Source: Weissella muntiaci
GTDB taxonomy: Bacteria; Bacillota; Bacilli; Lactobacillales; Lactobacillaceae
NCBI RefSeq assembly: GCF_008107635.1
Contig: NZ_SDGZ01000014.1
Span: 1 to 64,000, forward strand
Reading direction: 5' to 3'
Length of the DNA stretch: 64,000 nucleotides
The first letter of the stretch is position 1, and every line of letters begins with the position of its first letter. Shown in pieces: positions 14,780 to 50,927 of the stretch. Below the pieces are notes generated by a model. The model ran no database searches, was not told the origin of the DNA, and saw only the letters and a program-made list of their open reading frames with translations. A program made the translations under genes and the position numbers.

Positions 14780-15814
14780 CTAGCCAAAGATACTCTGGAA
14801 CCAACTAACTACCGGGTTCCAAATATTCGTAATAAACCAATTTGCCGCCTGCTTAACATCGGCAGAGTTGGCAAAGTCCTTTGCTTGCGCCATTACATTT
14901 CCCACTGAACTGCTCAATCGTCCGGCCAAATCTTTCGCCTGCGTCACAAAGGCTGATGAATTCGAAATAGGTGCATCCGCAACGTCCTTCAAAGCTGTTG
15001 CAATGTTTTGCACTTGTGTTGAAGAAGTTTCATCTGCGATCCCTTGCTTATTTAAATTAATATTTAACTGATTAACAATTATGTTAATCGTGATTGTTTG
15101 ACCGTCCTGCTTTTTTTGAGCAACTTCGCCGGCGGTCTTTGTAACTGCTGAGGTCAATTTACCAGCATAACTACTATCACCTGAATTGGCGTTAATCGCG
15201 TCTTGAGTTGCGTTCATCACATTATTTGCCGCCTCAGTGTTAGCTGAGTCCAATGTTGCACCATCTGCTTCCAAGGCCTTATAAACTCCAGCCAAGGCTG
15301 CCTCACCAGAAACTGCTTGATTTGCCGAAACGGTAATAATTACATCCTTAACCCCGGCCATCGTTGCCGCCATCGAATACTGCTGTGATGTCACCTGGCT
15401 AATATTATTTTTACCATTGAAATCTTTAATATTTACTAAAATACCACTACCAGGTTCTGCCGGCGCAACAGCCACCGATGAAATCATCGCTGAATCCGCA
15501 ACACCACTTAACCCCAAATATTGTTGGGCGTCAGCTCCTGTCGTTGTCAATTGTTCATAGTTATCTGTCACACCTAAAATTGTCTTCAAAGTACTCTGCT
15601 GAGAAGCGCCGGCACCATAGACAACATATGATTTTGATAGGTTGTGAATTTGCGTAGCACTTGAAGAAGCCGCACTACTGTCGCTACTTGCCGTACTAGT
15701 AGAATCTGCAAAGGCGGTCGTAATCATCGACCCACTAATTGTAACCACAGTTGATACAGCTGTTGTCAAACTAGCTGCAATTAAAACACTTGCAATCAAA
15801 TTTTTACTTTTCAT
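14780..15814 (-). CDS. Secreted DUF1002 protein
   Basis: A 344-residue exported protein. The signal peptide spans about residues 1-36 (MKSKN, hydrophobic core, TTAFADS). A Ser/Ala linker is followed by the DUF1002 domain (YpuA-like in Bacillus): YVVYGAGASQQSTLKTILGV, then ITVSANQAVSGEAALAGVYKA and a helical C-terminal part. The C-terminus ends in an aromatic cluster (WFITNIWNPVVSWFQSIFG) that may associate with the membrane. Function of DUF1002 is unknown. GGAGG supports the start. It overlaps the birA operon by position (8-bp gap), with the unknown envelope protein gene upstream. Confidence 0.85.
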   Translation of the reverse strand: MKSKNLIASVLIAASLTTAVSTVVTISGSMITTAFADSTSTASSDSSAASSSATQIHNLSKSYVVYGAGASQQSTLKTILGVTDNYEQLTTTGADAQQYLGLSGVADSAMISSVAVAPAEPGSGILVNIKDFNGKNNISQVTSQQYSMAATMAGVKDVIITVSANQAVSGEAALAGVYKALEADGATLDSANTEAANNVMNATQDAINANSGDSSYAGKLTSAVTKTAGEVAQKKQDGQTITINIIVNQLNINLNKQGIADETSSTQVQNIATALKDVADAPISNSSAFVTQAKDLAGRLSSSVGNVMAQAKDFANSADVKQAANWFITNIWNPVVSWFQSIFG

Positions 15815-18626: not shown

Positions 18627-19313
18627 TTAAGCTTGTCCTTTATCAGCCTTAGTCAGTCCTGCTTTTTCAAGTTTGCCATTTACAGGCTCAGATTTCTTAA
18701 CAACCTGCGTATCAACCATGACACCATGAAGCCCTTTGGCAATCATTCGGCCAATTGGCTTTGAAAACGGAGCGTGAATGGTTACAGACTTAACCTCTTG
18801 ATCATCATTTTCATTTAAAATTCCTGAATCAGACAATTCCATATTTGATAATCGTACTGAGCGAACCCGAATGATCCCCGGCTTGTCCATTACATCATCA
18901 TAGATCTGTGCAAGTTCAGCATCTAAAGCCTTAGTCGCTTCCTCGCTAACAACTAATTTTTGTGTTAGTGCTTTAGTTGCCGTTACAATCGCCTCATCCA
19001 CGATTGCTTTCAATTCTGTTTCGCTTAGATTTTGATGGTCTGCCTGATATGTCTCAAAAGCGTCCGTAACTTCGTTCAACTCTGTTAATAGACCTTCCTG
19101 CTTCGTTTGTAAATTTGAAAGTGTTTCGACTGCCTTCTGTTTTTCAACCTCCGCCCTTTGCTTAGCCTCTTCGCTGACTTTTTGTAATTTTTCAGCTTTT
19201 GCCAAATCCAGCTTTTGTTGATTGATCGTCTTGTTTAATTCAACAGTCTTCTCTTTAATCATCGTCTCAACTTGTAAAGACGTATATGTTTCATCATTAT
19301 TAAAAATTGCCAT
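18627..19313 (-). CDS. Coiled-coil protein with conserved C-terminal domain, copy B (228 aa)
   Basis: Unrecognised. The N-terminal two-thirds (about residues 15-145) are a long coiled coil rich in Lys, Glu, Gln and Ala. The C-terminal part matches its neighbour closely: IYDDVMDKPGIIRVRS, then RLSNMELSD, a short variable linker, and HAPFSKPIGRMIAKGLHGV. A Lys-rich tail of about 25 residues follows, absent from the neighbour. No signal peptide or membrane segment. AGGAG precedes the start. It lies 22 bp downstream of the 196-aa paralogue and both lie downstream of a large structured RNA. Possibly a cytoskeletal or scaffold-like protein, but that is only suggested by the coiled coil. Confidence 0.75.
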   Translation of the reverse strand: MAIFNNDETYTSLQVETMIKEKTVELNKTINQQKLDLAKAEKLQKVSEEAKQRAEVEKQKAVETLSNLQTKQEGLLTELNEVTDAFETYQADHQNLSETELKAIVDEAIVTATKALTQKLVVSEEATKALDAELAQIYDDVMDKPGIIRVRSVRLSNMELSDSGILNENDDQEVKSVTIHAPFSKPIGRMIAKGLHGVMVDTQVVKKSEPVNGKLEKAGLTKADKGQA

Positions 19314-19335: not shown

Positions 19336-19926
19336 TTAATCAGTCAGTTCCACACCATGCAAACCTTGCGCAATCATCCGGCCAATTGGCTTTGAGAACG
19401 GAGCATGTAGTGTCAATGCCAAAACCTCTTGGTTATCATCAGCTACAGGCGCATGTAAATCAGATAGTTCTAAATTAGCAAGCCGGATTGAGCGAACGCG
19501 AACAGTCCCTGGCTTATCCATCACATCATCATAAATCGCCGCAAGCTCACCTTCTAAATTAGCAATCTTGGCTACTTGTTGAGCGAGCTGTTCCTCATAG
19601 CCTTGCTTAATTTTTAAACCTAACTCGGTCAACTTATCATCAAACCTGTTTAATTCACCTTTGACACTATCGTAATCTTTTTCAAGGGCCGCATACTTCT
19701 TTTCAGACTGCTCTAAAGCGCCGACCTCATTTGCAATATTTTGATCTTTTGCCGCCATCTGTGTCTCAAGCGTTTGATTTTTAGTCAATAATTCCTCAAC
19801 TGTTTGCTTTAGCGACTGCAAACTTTCCTCGTAATTCTCGATAACCTCTCGACCGTTATAGGTCTCGGCAGCAACCGCCTTGGCAACTAGCTCATTAACT
19901 TCTTCTTGTGTGTATCGTCCGGCCAT
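19336..19926 (-). CDS. Coiled-coil protein with conserved C-terminal domain, copy A (196 aa)
   Basis: Unrecognised paralogue of the next gene. Short N-terminal segment RYTQEEVNELVAKAVAAE, then coiled coil (about residues 25-130) with many heptad-like Leu/Glu/Lys positions. The C-terminal module has IYDDVMDKPGTVRVRS, RLANLELSD and HAPFSKPIGRMIAQGLHGV, nearly identical to copy B while the coils differ in sequence. This says the C-terminal module is the selected functional part. AGAGAAGAG precedes the ATG. The gene starts about 100 nt after the terminator of the upstream structured RNA. Confidence 0.75.
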   Translation of the reverse strand: MAGRYTQEEVNELVAKAVAAETYNGREVIENYEESLQSLKQTVEELLTKNQTLETQMAAKDQNIANEVGALEQSEKKYAALEKDYDSVKGELNRFDDKLTELGLKIKQGYEEQLAQQVAKIANLEGELAAIYDDVMDKPGTVRVRSIRLANLELSDLHAPVADDNQEVLALTLHAPFSKPIGRMIAQGLHGVELTD

Positions 19927-20020
19927 ATCAATTCTCTTCTCTCATTTCAATCTTGTAATAAATCAATACTGTTATTATTCATGTTTAATATTTATATGTC
20001 CAGCCCCATTTGGTGACTAC

Positions 20021-20054
20021 AATTAAAAATCCACCAAGCAGTTCTGCTCCGTGG
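20021..20054 (-). terminator. Terminator of the structured RNA
   Basis: On the minus strand CCACGGAGCAG pairs with CTGCTTGGTGG (one mismatch, one wobble) and is followed by ATTTTTAATT. The T-tract exists only on the minus side, giving the direction of the RNA. Confidence 0.75.
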
Positions 20055-20398
20055 ACGGTTTTCGTTGAGTCTTGCGACGCTCAACTAGGGCTACCCTTTC
20101 GGCCTCCCTAATATTCAATTGTAAGAGACTTATCAGAAGTCTAGGCTGCAGTCCTAAACACCTGTCCCTGATAAATCTAACCAAATCATCTATTTAAGCA
20201 TTAACAAACAGTACCCACATTACCCGTTCACAATAAGTTACATTGCCGATTCTGTCACCAAAATCTGAAAAAGCGAGCCGTGTCGGGTCAGGTAAGTAAC
20301 TTAGGTTTAGTCTTTCATCATAAAAATATGATTATCAAACCTCATACCTACACTGATTGCTAATGACACCAAGAGTTGTCAACATCAAGACGTATGTT
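20022..20398 (-). ncRNA. Candidate large structured RNA (~375 nt), unassigned
   Basis: A minus-strand RNA inferred from dense secondary structure between a -10 TATAAT (20405-20410) and a terminator. In order of transcription: TGACA/TGTCA (20364-20381); AGGTTT/AAACCT enclosing ATCATA/TATGAT (20303-20342); AAGTTAC/GTAACTT enclosing CCGA/TCGG (20235-20302); TTATCAG/CTGATAA enclosing TAGG/CCTA (20130-20174); TAGGG/CCCTA (20086-20110); GTTGAG/CTCAAC (20064-20085); terminal hairpin (20031-20054) plus T-tract. I looked for landmark sequences of tmRNA, RNase P, SRP RNA and 6S RNA and did not find them. It could be a free RNA or a leader of the coiled-coil operon 100 nt downstream. Confidence 0.6.
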
Positions 20399-20404
20399 TA
20401 TCGA

Positions 20405-20410
20405 ATTATA
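20405..20410 (-). promoter_or_regulatory. Putative -10 box for the structured RNA
   Basis: Perfect TATAAT on the minus strand about 7 nt upstream of the first hairpin region. No good -35 hexamer at 17 nt; TG lies two bases upstream, near an extended -10. Confidence 0.4.
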
Positions 20411-20556
20411 TTCAGATACTTTCGTAGATCTTGGGTCATTACTGCGACACGCCCATGCGGATTAAAGTTTGTAATGTAATAGCTGAAGTTGAGAATGAAT
20501 TTTCGACCAAGCTCATTACCACCTTTCCTTTGGTACACCATTATAATATCACTATC

Positions 20557-20570
20557 TGCAAGCGCTTACA
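20557..20570 (+). promoter_or_regulatory. cre-like CcpA operator
   Basis: TGCAAGCGCTTACA matches the catabolite-response element consensus TGWAANCGNTNWCA except at position 3. It lies about 150 bp upstream of the polysaccharide deacetylase gene, next to TATAAT-like hexamers at 20542-20547 and 20599-20604. Suggests glucose-dependent control, direction uncertain. Confidence 0.5.
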
Positions 20571-20720
20571 AGCGAAACGTTTTTTAATCAAACTAACGTA
20601 TAATATCCAAACCCGTCCTCAAAACCAACTGAGATAAAACTATTGAAAACGTCATAAATGGTGTTATCTTATTATTAATAGTATCTACAATCAATATCCC
20701 TTACGAATCTGAGGTCCTTT

Positions 20721-50155: not shown

Positions 50156-50159
50156 ATGA

Positions 50160-50232
50160 TGGGCAGTCAGGGGCTCGAACCCTGGACCCACGGATTAAGA
50201 GTCCGTTGCTCTACCAACTGAGCTAACTGCCC
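50160..50232 (-). tRNA. tRNA-Lys(CUU), copy 1
   Basis: A 73-nt cloverleaf on the minus strand: acceptor GGGCAGT/ACTGCCC, D-arm AGCTCAGTTGGTAGAGCA, anticodon loop CTCTTAA with anticodon CUU (reads AAG), T-loop GGTTCGAGCC, discriminator A. CCA is not encoded. It has its own promoter (TTGTAT, 17 nt, TATTAT) upstream and its own terminator downstream. Confidence 0.96.
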
Positions 50233-50301
50233 ATGCATTGTCTTTCAACAACAGATAATATAATACCACATGCAGCTAATCAATACAATATTTTTTTAAA
50301 G

Positions 50302-50340
50302 AAAAAAGCATTTACAGGATAACCCTGCAAATGCTTTTTT
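50302..50340 (-). terminator. Terminator of tRNA-Lys copy 2
   Basis: AAAAAAGCATTT/AAATGCTTTTTT with inner CAGG/CCTG pairing and T-run on the minus strand. Confidence 0.88.
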
Positions 50341-50347
50341 CTTTTGA

Positions 50348-50420
50348 TGGGCAGTCAGGGGCTCGAACCCTGGACCCACGGATTAAGAGTCCGTTGCTCT
50401 ACCAACTGAGCTAACTGCCC
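50348..50420 (-). tRNA. tRNA-Lys(CUU), copy 2
   Basis: Body identical to copy 1, anticodon CUU. Separate promoter (TTGTAT, 17 nt, TATTAT) and leader ATTATCTGTTGTTAAAAG, separate terminator. Confidence 0.96.
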
Positions 50421-50489
50421 ATACATTGTCTTTTAACAACAGATAATATAATATCATATTCAACTAGCTAATACAATATCTTTTTAAAA

Positions 50490-50527
50490 CAAAAAGCATT
50501 CACAGATAATTTCTGTAAATGCTTTTC
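50490..50527 (-). terminator. Terminator of tRNA-Lys copy 3
   Basis: AAAAGCATT/AATGCTTTT with inner ACAGA/TCTGT pairing, then TTTTTG on the minus strand. Confidence 0.85.
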
Positions 50528-50532
50528 TTTGA

Positions 50533-50605
50533 TGGGCAGTCAGGGGCTCGAACCCTGGACCCACGGATTAAGAGTCCGTTGCTCTACCAACTGAGCTAAC
50601 TGCCC
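50533..50605 (-). tRNA. tRNA-Lys(CUU), copy 3
   Basis: Body identical to copy 1, anticodon CUU. Promoter TTGTAA, 17 nt, TATATT. Confidence 0.96.
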
Positions 50606-50679
50606 ATACGTTATCTTTTAACAACAGATAATAATATATCATAAACTTCAATACTTTACAATGGCTTTAACGAAAAATA

Positions 50680-50717
50680 AAAGCACCTACAAGAGTTATA
50701 CTTGTAAATGCTTTTTC
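50680..50717 (-). terminator. Terminator of tRNA-Lys copy 4
   Basis: AAAAGCA(C/T)..TACAAG/CTTGTA..TGCTTTT hairpin with T-run on the minus strand. Confidence 0.82.
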
Positions 50718-50723
50718 TTTTGA

Positions 50724-50796
50724 TGGGCAGTCAGGGGCTCGAACCCTGGACCCACGGATTAAGAGTCCGTTGCTCTACCAACTGAGCTAACTGCCC
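50724..50796 (-). tRNA. tRNA-Lys(CUU), copy 4
   Basis: Body identical to copy 1, anticodon CUU. Promoter TTGCCA, 17 nt, TATATT. Confidence 0.96.
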
Positions 50797-50927
50797 GTAC
50801 ACTGTCTTTAACAACAAATAGTAATATACCACTCCCAGCACCTATTGGCAAGTATTTTCTCGATCCAACTTTGCTGAGAAAACCCATTAACTCCGCATAT
50901 AGCATTCTATATATAATTCCACAAAAA

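Follow-up and report, generated by a model that had tools for sequence, protein, structure and literature searches.

A conserved structured RNA gene with a small open reading frame and a putative cre box in Weissella

RESULTS

A structured RNA gene on the minus strand

We analyzed a window of 64,000 nucleotides from Weissella muntiaci (contig NZ_SDGZ01000014.1, positions 1 to 64,000). The minus strand of this window carries an RNA of ~515 nt (positions 20018 to 20534), delimited by an alignment of 24 copies together with covariation. Its 3′ end follows from the terminator, and its putative 5′ end was placed 37 nt past the first base of a cre (CcpA) box. The conserved unit extends from the promoter (~20571 to 20540) through the terminator (20056 to 20025), and the aligned stretches measure 467 to 564 nt across the 24 copies. 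A first-pass annotation had described a structured minus-strand RNA of ~375 nt at 20022 to 20398. This observation of a structured RNA is borne out by its fold z score and by compensatory changes in relatives, and no Rfam family matches it. The annotated coordinates lie inside it but are too short, covering the 3′ three quarters of the gene; in the 24-copy alignment, the conserved unit starts ~140 nt upstream of the annotated end. The TATAAT sequence that had been taken for an upstream promoter, probably the one at 20405 to 20410, is situated within the RNA and is present there in only 1 of the 24 copies.

From 5′ to 3′, the RNA consists of a 5′ domain shaped by helices 1 and 3, a strongly covarying arm (helices 7 to 9), a variable linker and a 3′ core. 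Helix 1 (20279 to 20451) pairs CGUGUC (20451 to 20446) with GACACG (20284 to 20279) and closes the 5′ domain; 99.3% of its cells in the alignment are paired, and 2 of its 6 pairs have changed on both sides. The 13 pairs of helix 3 (20361 to 20441) are formed in 90.4% of cells, and 5 of them have changed on both sides. The 3′ core (20021 to 20193), from which we built the search model R1, begins with a long irregular hairpin whose apical loop holds the palindrome CUGCAG (20146 to 20151), invariant in 24/24 copies. This is followed by the nearly invariant stretch ACAAUUGAAUA (20112 to 20122; unchanged in 23/24 copies), a candidate contact site, and by two more hairpins and an intrinsic terminator (20025 to 20056) in which a stem precedes UUUUU. 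A minus-strand terminator had been proposed in the first-pass annotation. It went unreported in a simple terminator scan, but the stem and the T-rich run after it are conserved with covariation in the 24-copy alignment, where they form helix 17 (9 pairs; 94.4% of cells paired; 8 of 9 pairs changed on both sides).

Conserved secondary structure

The minus strand between 20010 and 20430 had a predicted folding energy of −122.8 kcal/mol (z = −3.69), and none of 100 shuffled sequences was as stable, while 22 of 100 shuffles were as stable as the plus strand of the same region (z = −0.94). Using RNAalifold on seven copies, we obtained 103 pairs, 55 of which showed compensatory changes. For the full set of 24 copies, 20 of the 118 RNAalifold pairs (those with a 5′ partner in columns 1 to 100) were dropped before counting. 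In the remaining 98-pair structure, 92.5% of cells were paired and 62 pairs had changed on both sides, with a covariation score of 0.452, compared to 0.216 in shuffles and 0.077 to 0.114 when the partners were slid along the alignment (35 to 43% of cells paired). None of 500 shuffles reached the observed percentage of paired cells, either count of changes or the score, and one reached the number of pair types. The stems proposed for this region are thus backed by compensatory changes in relatives.

The structure predicted from the window sequence by itself was also retained above the controls. Over all of its 170 pairs, 73.1% of cells were paired (36 to 45% when slid), and the score was 0.289 (0.067 to 0.113 when slid; 0/500 shuffles), while its number of pair types was reached by 17 of 500 shuffles. 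Within the region of the open reading frame (ORF), the majority of its helices were poorly kept, and we do not claim them. When all possible helices were scored on 15 diverged copies, the six highest-ranked ones all belonged to the model, and no strong helix was found outside it (best score of 0.42, versus 0.77 for the sixth model helix).

Could this signal reflect chance folding, or conservation of the DNA with no RNA being made? Such an explanation can draw on the opposite strand, which also folded at z ≤ −2 in 8 of 15 copies (60 shuffles each), and the RNA strand itself was above −2 in 4 of 15 (≤ −2 in the other 11). The RNA strand was nevertheless the more extreme of the two in 14 of 15 copies, the compensatory changes lie far above both shuffled and slid controls, and promoter and terminator are conserved as well, leaving this explanation with a next to negligible probability.

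Distribution within the genus Weissella

A DNA search of 60 genomes returned matches in eight, including the genome of origin. The closest RNA among the genomes searched, in G025, was 79% identical over most of its length. Five genomes of the genus had short matches to the core; a weak match in G036 was not confirmed by R1. This model, built from seven sequences of the 3′ core, matched 21 of 28 genomes of the genus, again including the genome of origin. When it was run on 350 genomes of the family with the stricter filters that we applied to scans of more than 40 genomes, all 13 matches fell in the same genus (1 of 40 genera), and none was found in any other genus scanned. A pattern scan of named genomes retrieved 19 stretches: 15 from Weissella records (W. 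paramesenteroides, W. oryzae, W. thailandensis, W. bombi, W. fangxianensis, W. confusa, W. hellenica, W. kandleri, W. cibaria and W. sagaensis), 2 from Lactobacillaceae metagenome-assembled genomes (MAGs) and 2 from unrelated MAGs, the last two being without R1 support. Plasmid and phage records contained no match, and 30 viral contigs bearing a 19-nt motif gave a single R1 match at an E value of 0.8; we therefore dismissed a phage or plasmid RNA.

The full-length set comprises 24 copies from 20 genomes, four of which (G002, G013, G023 and G027) carry a second copy. These second copies adjoin pyrimidine genes and a glycosyltransferase gene (Pfam was run on one of them), and their small ORFs are nearly identical among themselves and differ from the first-copy ORF. 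Genome G003, which is 66% complete, was excluded from all alignments; its two loci and their neighboring genes look broken or chimeric, perhaps through an assembly fault.

Seven of the 28 genomes of the genus gave no R1 match, which means that the RNA is not a general feature of Weissella. In four of these RNA-less genomes, the matches to ppx and nnrD lie only ~120 to 130 nt apart, which leaves no room for the RNA; the distance is ~780 nt in G007, and no nnrD match was found in G020 or G026. Short motifs do occur in RNA-less loci (AATTGAATA in two, L082 and L086, and CAGTAGTG together with CTGCAGTTTA in L084), with neither a cre box beside them nor an R1 match. A second model, R2, was built from 21 of the 24 copies and run on 33 genomes, 18 of which had a match at E values up to 1. 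The best matches outside G003 had E values of 0.001 to 0.04; none of the top seven had a cre box in the locus or a matched stretch containing CTGCAG, CAATTGAATA or GACAG.

Neighboring genes vary among relatives

Downstream of the RNA, on the same strand of the window, lies a gene for a coiled-coil protein (19336 to 19926), which we regard as a neighbor outside the system. It adjoins a second gene of this kind (18627 to 19313), and the two proteins are 69.6% identical over 69 residues in a C-terminal stretch. Pfam assigned no family to the product of 18627 to 19313 and gave sub-threshold coiled-coil matches for the other. Farther along, at 14780 to 15814, the window encodes a DUF1002-domain protein (E value of 2.2e−39) that appears by eye to be secreted and has a homologue in the same neighborhood of G025.

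As one of two options, the first-pass annotation had viewed the RNA as a long leader controlling the coiled-coil operon. The arrangement in the window would allow for a leader or attenuator, the start codon of the coiled-coil gene being ~100 nt past the RNA terminator. In tblastn searches with both coiled-coil proteins, though, none of 25 stretches of 12.5 to 13 kb around the RNA in relatives (G003 included) contained a homologue. Moreover, a separate promoter-like site for the coiled-coil gene lies past the RNA terminator (20002 to 19974; 10 of 12 matches). A cis-acting leader would be expected to keep its downstream gene, and here the neighbors differ among relatives, including Ppx/GppA, NnrD, a GFO/IDH/MocA-type oxidoreductase, PepV, pyrimidine genes and others. 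In G025, the nearest relative, pepV is the next gene downstream, whereas in G018 the RNA lies near a histidine-phosphatase-family gene and a DEAD-box helicase gene. We consider control of the coiled-coil operon extremely unlikely. The varied neighbors, the lack of coiled-coil homologues nearby in relatives and the separate promoter-like site together support a free-standing gene, so that of the earlier interpretation, the new free-standing structured RNA stands (conservation, covariation, its own predicted promoter and terminator and no Rfam family) and the operon leader does not.

A promoter overlapped by a putative cre box

Upstream of the RNA, a promoter scan placed a sigma-70 type promoter at 20540 to 20571 (minus strand), with TTGTAA and TATTAT (20548 to 20543) separated by 17 nt; a perfect TATAAT three bases on (20545 to 20540) may serve as the −10 element instead. 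Overlapping the −35 region is a putative cre box, TTGTAAGCGCTTGCA (20557 to 20571), which fits the cre consensus WTGNAANCGNWNNCW. In 22 of 24 copies, the 60 nt that precede the aligned RNA contain a full 15-position match to WTGNAANCGNWNNCW, and 23 copies match its first 14 positions. The pattern is weak on its own, occurring 3 times in the 64-kb window against 1.85 expected, and its weight therefore rests on its placement before the RNA.

A −10-like hexamer (four to six of the six letters of TATAAT) was present in all 24 copies, at a distance of 23 bases (14 copies) or 26 bases (10 copies) from where the cre box starts. Since the best −10 hexamer stands 20 nt from TTGNAA in 10 of 24 copies, above the usual spacing, the −35 assignment is uncertain. 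The distance between cre box and RNA start carries no evidence, as the start was set from the box itself; as an independent measure, we used the distance from the cre box to the TTG start codon of the small ORF, which was 60 to 62 nt in 18 copies, 65 nt in 4 and 82 nt in 1 (G018), with G006 excluded from the 23 copies measured. CcpA is encoded in the genome (500.7 bits, above the curated cutoff). Thus, both features that would mark a CcpA-repressed gene, a putative cre box at the promoter and a predicted CcpA protein, are found here.

A small ORF of constant length

Near its 5′ end, the RNA contains a small ORF of 23 codons (20439 to 20510, minus strand) that starts with TTG, stops with TAA and encodes (M)VENSFSTSAITLQTLIRMGVSQ. 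It is preceded by a Shine-Dalgarno-like sequence, AAAGGTGG (20519 to 20526), and at least 5 nt of AAAGGAGGTGATC are found 5 to 12 nt before the TTG in 23/23 ORF-bearing copies. An in-frame ATG two codons upstream of the TTG (20514 to 20516) would give an alternative ORF length of 25 codons. The distance from TTG to the stop codon (TAA or TAG) is exactly 23 codons in 23 of 24 copies, despite widely varying sequence in between. The first-pass annotation had overlooked both this ORF and the cre site.

For a coding test, we used codons 2 to 19 of 14 copies that were less than 90% identical, leaving out G006, where the ORF is one base short and the frame is lost. The mean BLOSUM62 score at changed codons was −0.03 in frame, compared to −1.03 and −1.11 in the other two frames and to −0.81 ± 0.22 in frame after permutation of the columns (0/500 permutations as high). 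The synonymous share was 0.133, against 0.094 in permuted columns (18/500 as high). None of the 14 copies contained an in-frame stop codon, while after column permutation an average of 9.65 of the 14 copies had one, and 0 of 2,000 trials were free of stops. Entropy was nearly equal at the three codon positions (1.24, 1.11 and 1.21), and the coding signal is consequently not a classic third-position excess. The last residues of the ORF (GVSQ or similar) fall outside the tested codons and are also constrained by an RNA helix. Judged by this conservation, the RNA has the small ORF that a dual-function RNA would be expected to carry.

The ORF and the fold overlap physically. The 5′ strand of helix 1 falls within the last codons, and helix 3, a long-range helix, begins with the stop codon UAA (20441 to 20439) paired to UUA (20363 to 20361). 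As the stop codon is part of this helix, a terminating ribosome would be expected to open the local helices.

The conserved length and amino acid similarity of the ORF would also fit an RNA that is mainly the mRNA of a micropeptide, the structured part being a 3′ untranslated region for stability or localization with no regulation in trans. Mean pairwise DNA identity speaks against this, being higher in the 5′ domain (0.74) and the 3′ core (0.67) than in the ORF (0.53), even if the middle arm (0.53) and the linker (0.54) do not exceed the ORF. So do the loops that remain invariant, such as CUGCAG, and the copy in G006, which has lost the reading frame and still forms 85 of 97 model pairs. We regard a micropeptide mRNA of this sort as unlikely, and the dual-function reading taken up in the Discussion keeps a role for both the peptide and the fold.

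No match to known RNA families

At gathering scores, the only Rfam matches in the window were four tRNAs. Four tRNA-Lys (CTT) genes stand in tandem on the minus strand (50157 to 50820), lying in repeat units of 188 bp (3.5 copies; 88% matches), which looks unusual for a single isoacceptor. Between 19900 and 20720, no Rfam family matched at E values up to 5. Over 14 loci from relatives, four weak matches were found at E values up to 1, each to a different family and at one locus each and all below the gathering score; the best, to SpF36 (E value of 0.0077), was at the 3′ edge on the opposite strand. RNAIII, RsaI and other Rfam families were dismissed for want of a covariance-model match at the window locus and at these 14 loci. 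ARAGORN and Rfam found neither tRNA nor tmRNA at the RNA locus, and type B RNase P RNA, which is encoded on another contig of this genome (325.7 bits), likewise had no match here. The first-pass annotation had looked for landmarks of tmRNA, RNase P, SRP and 6S RNA and found none.

6S RNA calls for separate consideration, because RF00013 had no match in the genome at an E value of 0.001, which could mean that the Weissella RNA is a functional replacement that binds RNA polymerase. Known 6S RNAs are ~200 nt long, and RarA is an AAA+ ATPase. The RNA described here has ~2.5 times that length and bears an ORF, its consensus is multibranched rather than a rod with a central bubble, and 7 of the 28 genomes of the genus are without a match; in addition, a crude test detected no Walker-A motif in its flanks. 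According to one survey, the Weissella 6S candidates are all weak and noncanonical, and the transcribed one lies downstream of rarA (PMC8414754). The same source reports a cre box over the −35 element of 6S promoters in about a third of lactic acid bacteria species, and the putative cre box here resembles these in position, with structure, ORF and location being different. Taken together, a replacement of 6S RNA seems very unlikely. The lack of canonical 6S RNA (RF00013) in the genome of origin agrees with what PMC8414754 reports for Weissella.

We found no description of such an RNA among the titles and abstract openings listed for open-license papers on Weissella small, noncoding, regulatory or dual-function RNA or on its transcriptome and CcpA. 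It is seemingly an undescribed RNA gene and a new family.

DISCUSSION

At the sequence level, the promoter with its putative cre box, the small ORF, the secondary structure and the terminator are all conserved, and no downstream gene is fixed. The best explanation, to which we give a probability of roughly 0.6, is that this free-standing RNA is a CcpA-repressed dual-function regulator, combining the roles of a structured regulatory RNA and of an mRNA for a peptide of 23 residues. A regulatory RNA with two jobs, made when preferred sugars run out, is the most likely reading because the promoter is likely sugar controlled, the ORF is conserved and the fold is preserved.

CcpA acts together with HPr-Ser-P, and in the presence of preferred sugars the two would repress the RNA gene. 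Upon sugar exhaustion, the RNA would be made and the peptide translated from it, while the folded domains may target other RNAs or a protein in trans, with carbon-use genes being the ones probably affected. A ribosome finishing the ORF must open helices, and its passage should therefore put translation in competition with 5′-domain folding. Two RNA copies may also pair through the invariant, self-complementary CUGCAG loop. The position of this palindrome in an apical loop suggests a dimerization site, possibly of the kissing-loop kind, but we offer dimerization as a suggestion and not as a result, since a random hexamer is self-complementary in 1 of 64 cases.

These elements can be combined into a bolder and quite tentative proposal, in which the regulatory RNA is gated by translation: with the stop codon being part of the central helix, each terminating ribosome would open the fold, the activity of the RNA would read translation capacity at sugar exhaustion, and the active form would be a dimer paired through CUGCAG.

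Few dual-function RNAs are under catabolite control, and it is rare for a bacterial RNA that belongs to none of the classic families to be both large and highly structured. By its logic, the Weissella RNA is closest to VcdRP of Vibrio cholerae, by size and build to RNAIII of Staphylococcus aureus and by its putative CcpA control to RsaI. VcdRP is a CRP-repressed dual-function RNA that encodes a 29-amino-acid peptide and acts by base pairing, with this pairing and the partner of the peptide both proven (PMC8672173). The two share a very small ORF (29 residues in VcdRP and 23 in Weissella) and a link to a catabolite regulator (CRP in one and, through the putative cre box, CcpA in the other), whereas the Weissella RNA is heavily structured. 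RNAIII has 514 nt and 14 stem-loops and encodes a peptide (PMC9266662). It resembles the Weissella RNA in size, in its many stem-loops and in having a small ORF within the same RNA; the Weissella RNA differs from it in having no Rfam match and in the putative cre box at its promoter. RsaI is a CcpA-repressed small RNA of S. aureus that is released on glucose starvation (PMC9266662). It would share with the Weissella RNA the CcpA repression of a Gram-positive regulatory RNA, which for Weissella is read from the cre box. In contrast to RsaI, for which the available text of PMC9266662 mentions no peptide, the Weissella RNA carries a small ORF, and it has no Rfam match.

If the translation-gated proposal is true, it would amount to a new RNA family and to a new coupling of peptide synthesis with RNA function. 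In this system, the mutual effects of translating a tiny ORF and folding a regulatory RNA could be tested directly. Weissella is used in food fermentation, and most of its genomes sampled here conserve the RNA, whose promoter predicts when to look for it. For Weissella, reported to be without canonical 6S RNA (PMC8414754), the RNA adds an RNA that is probably linked to CcpA.
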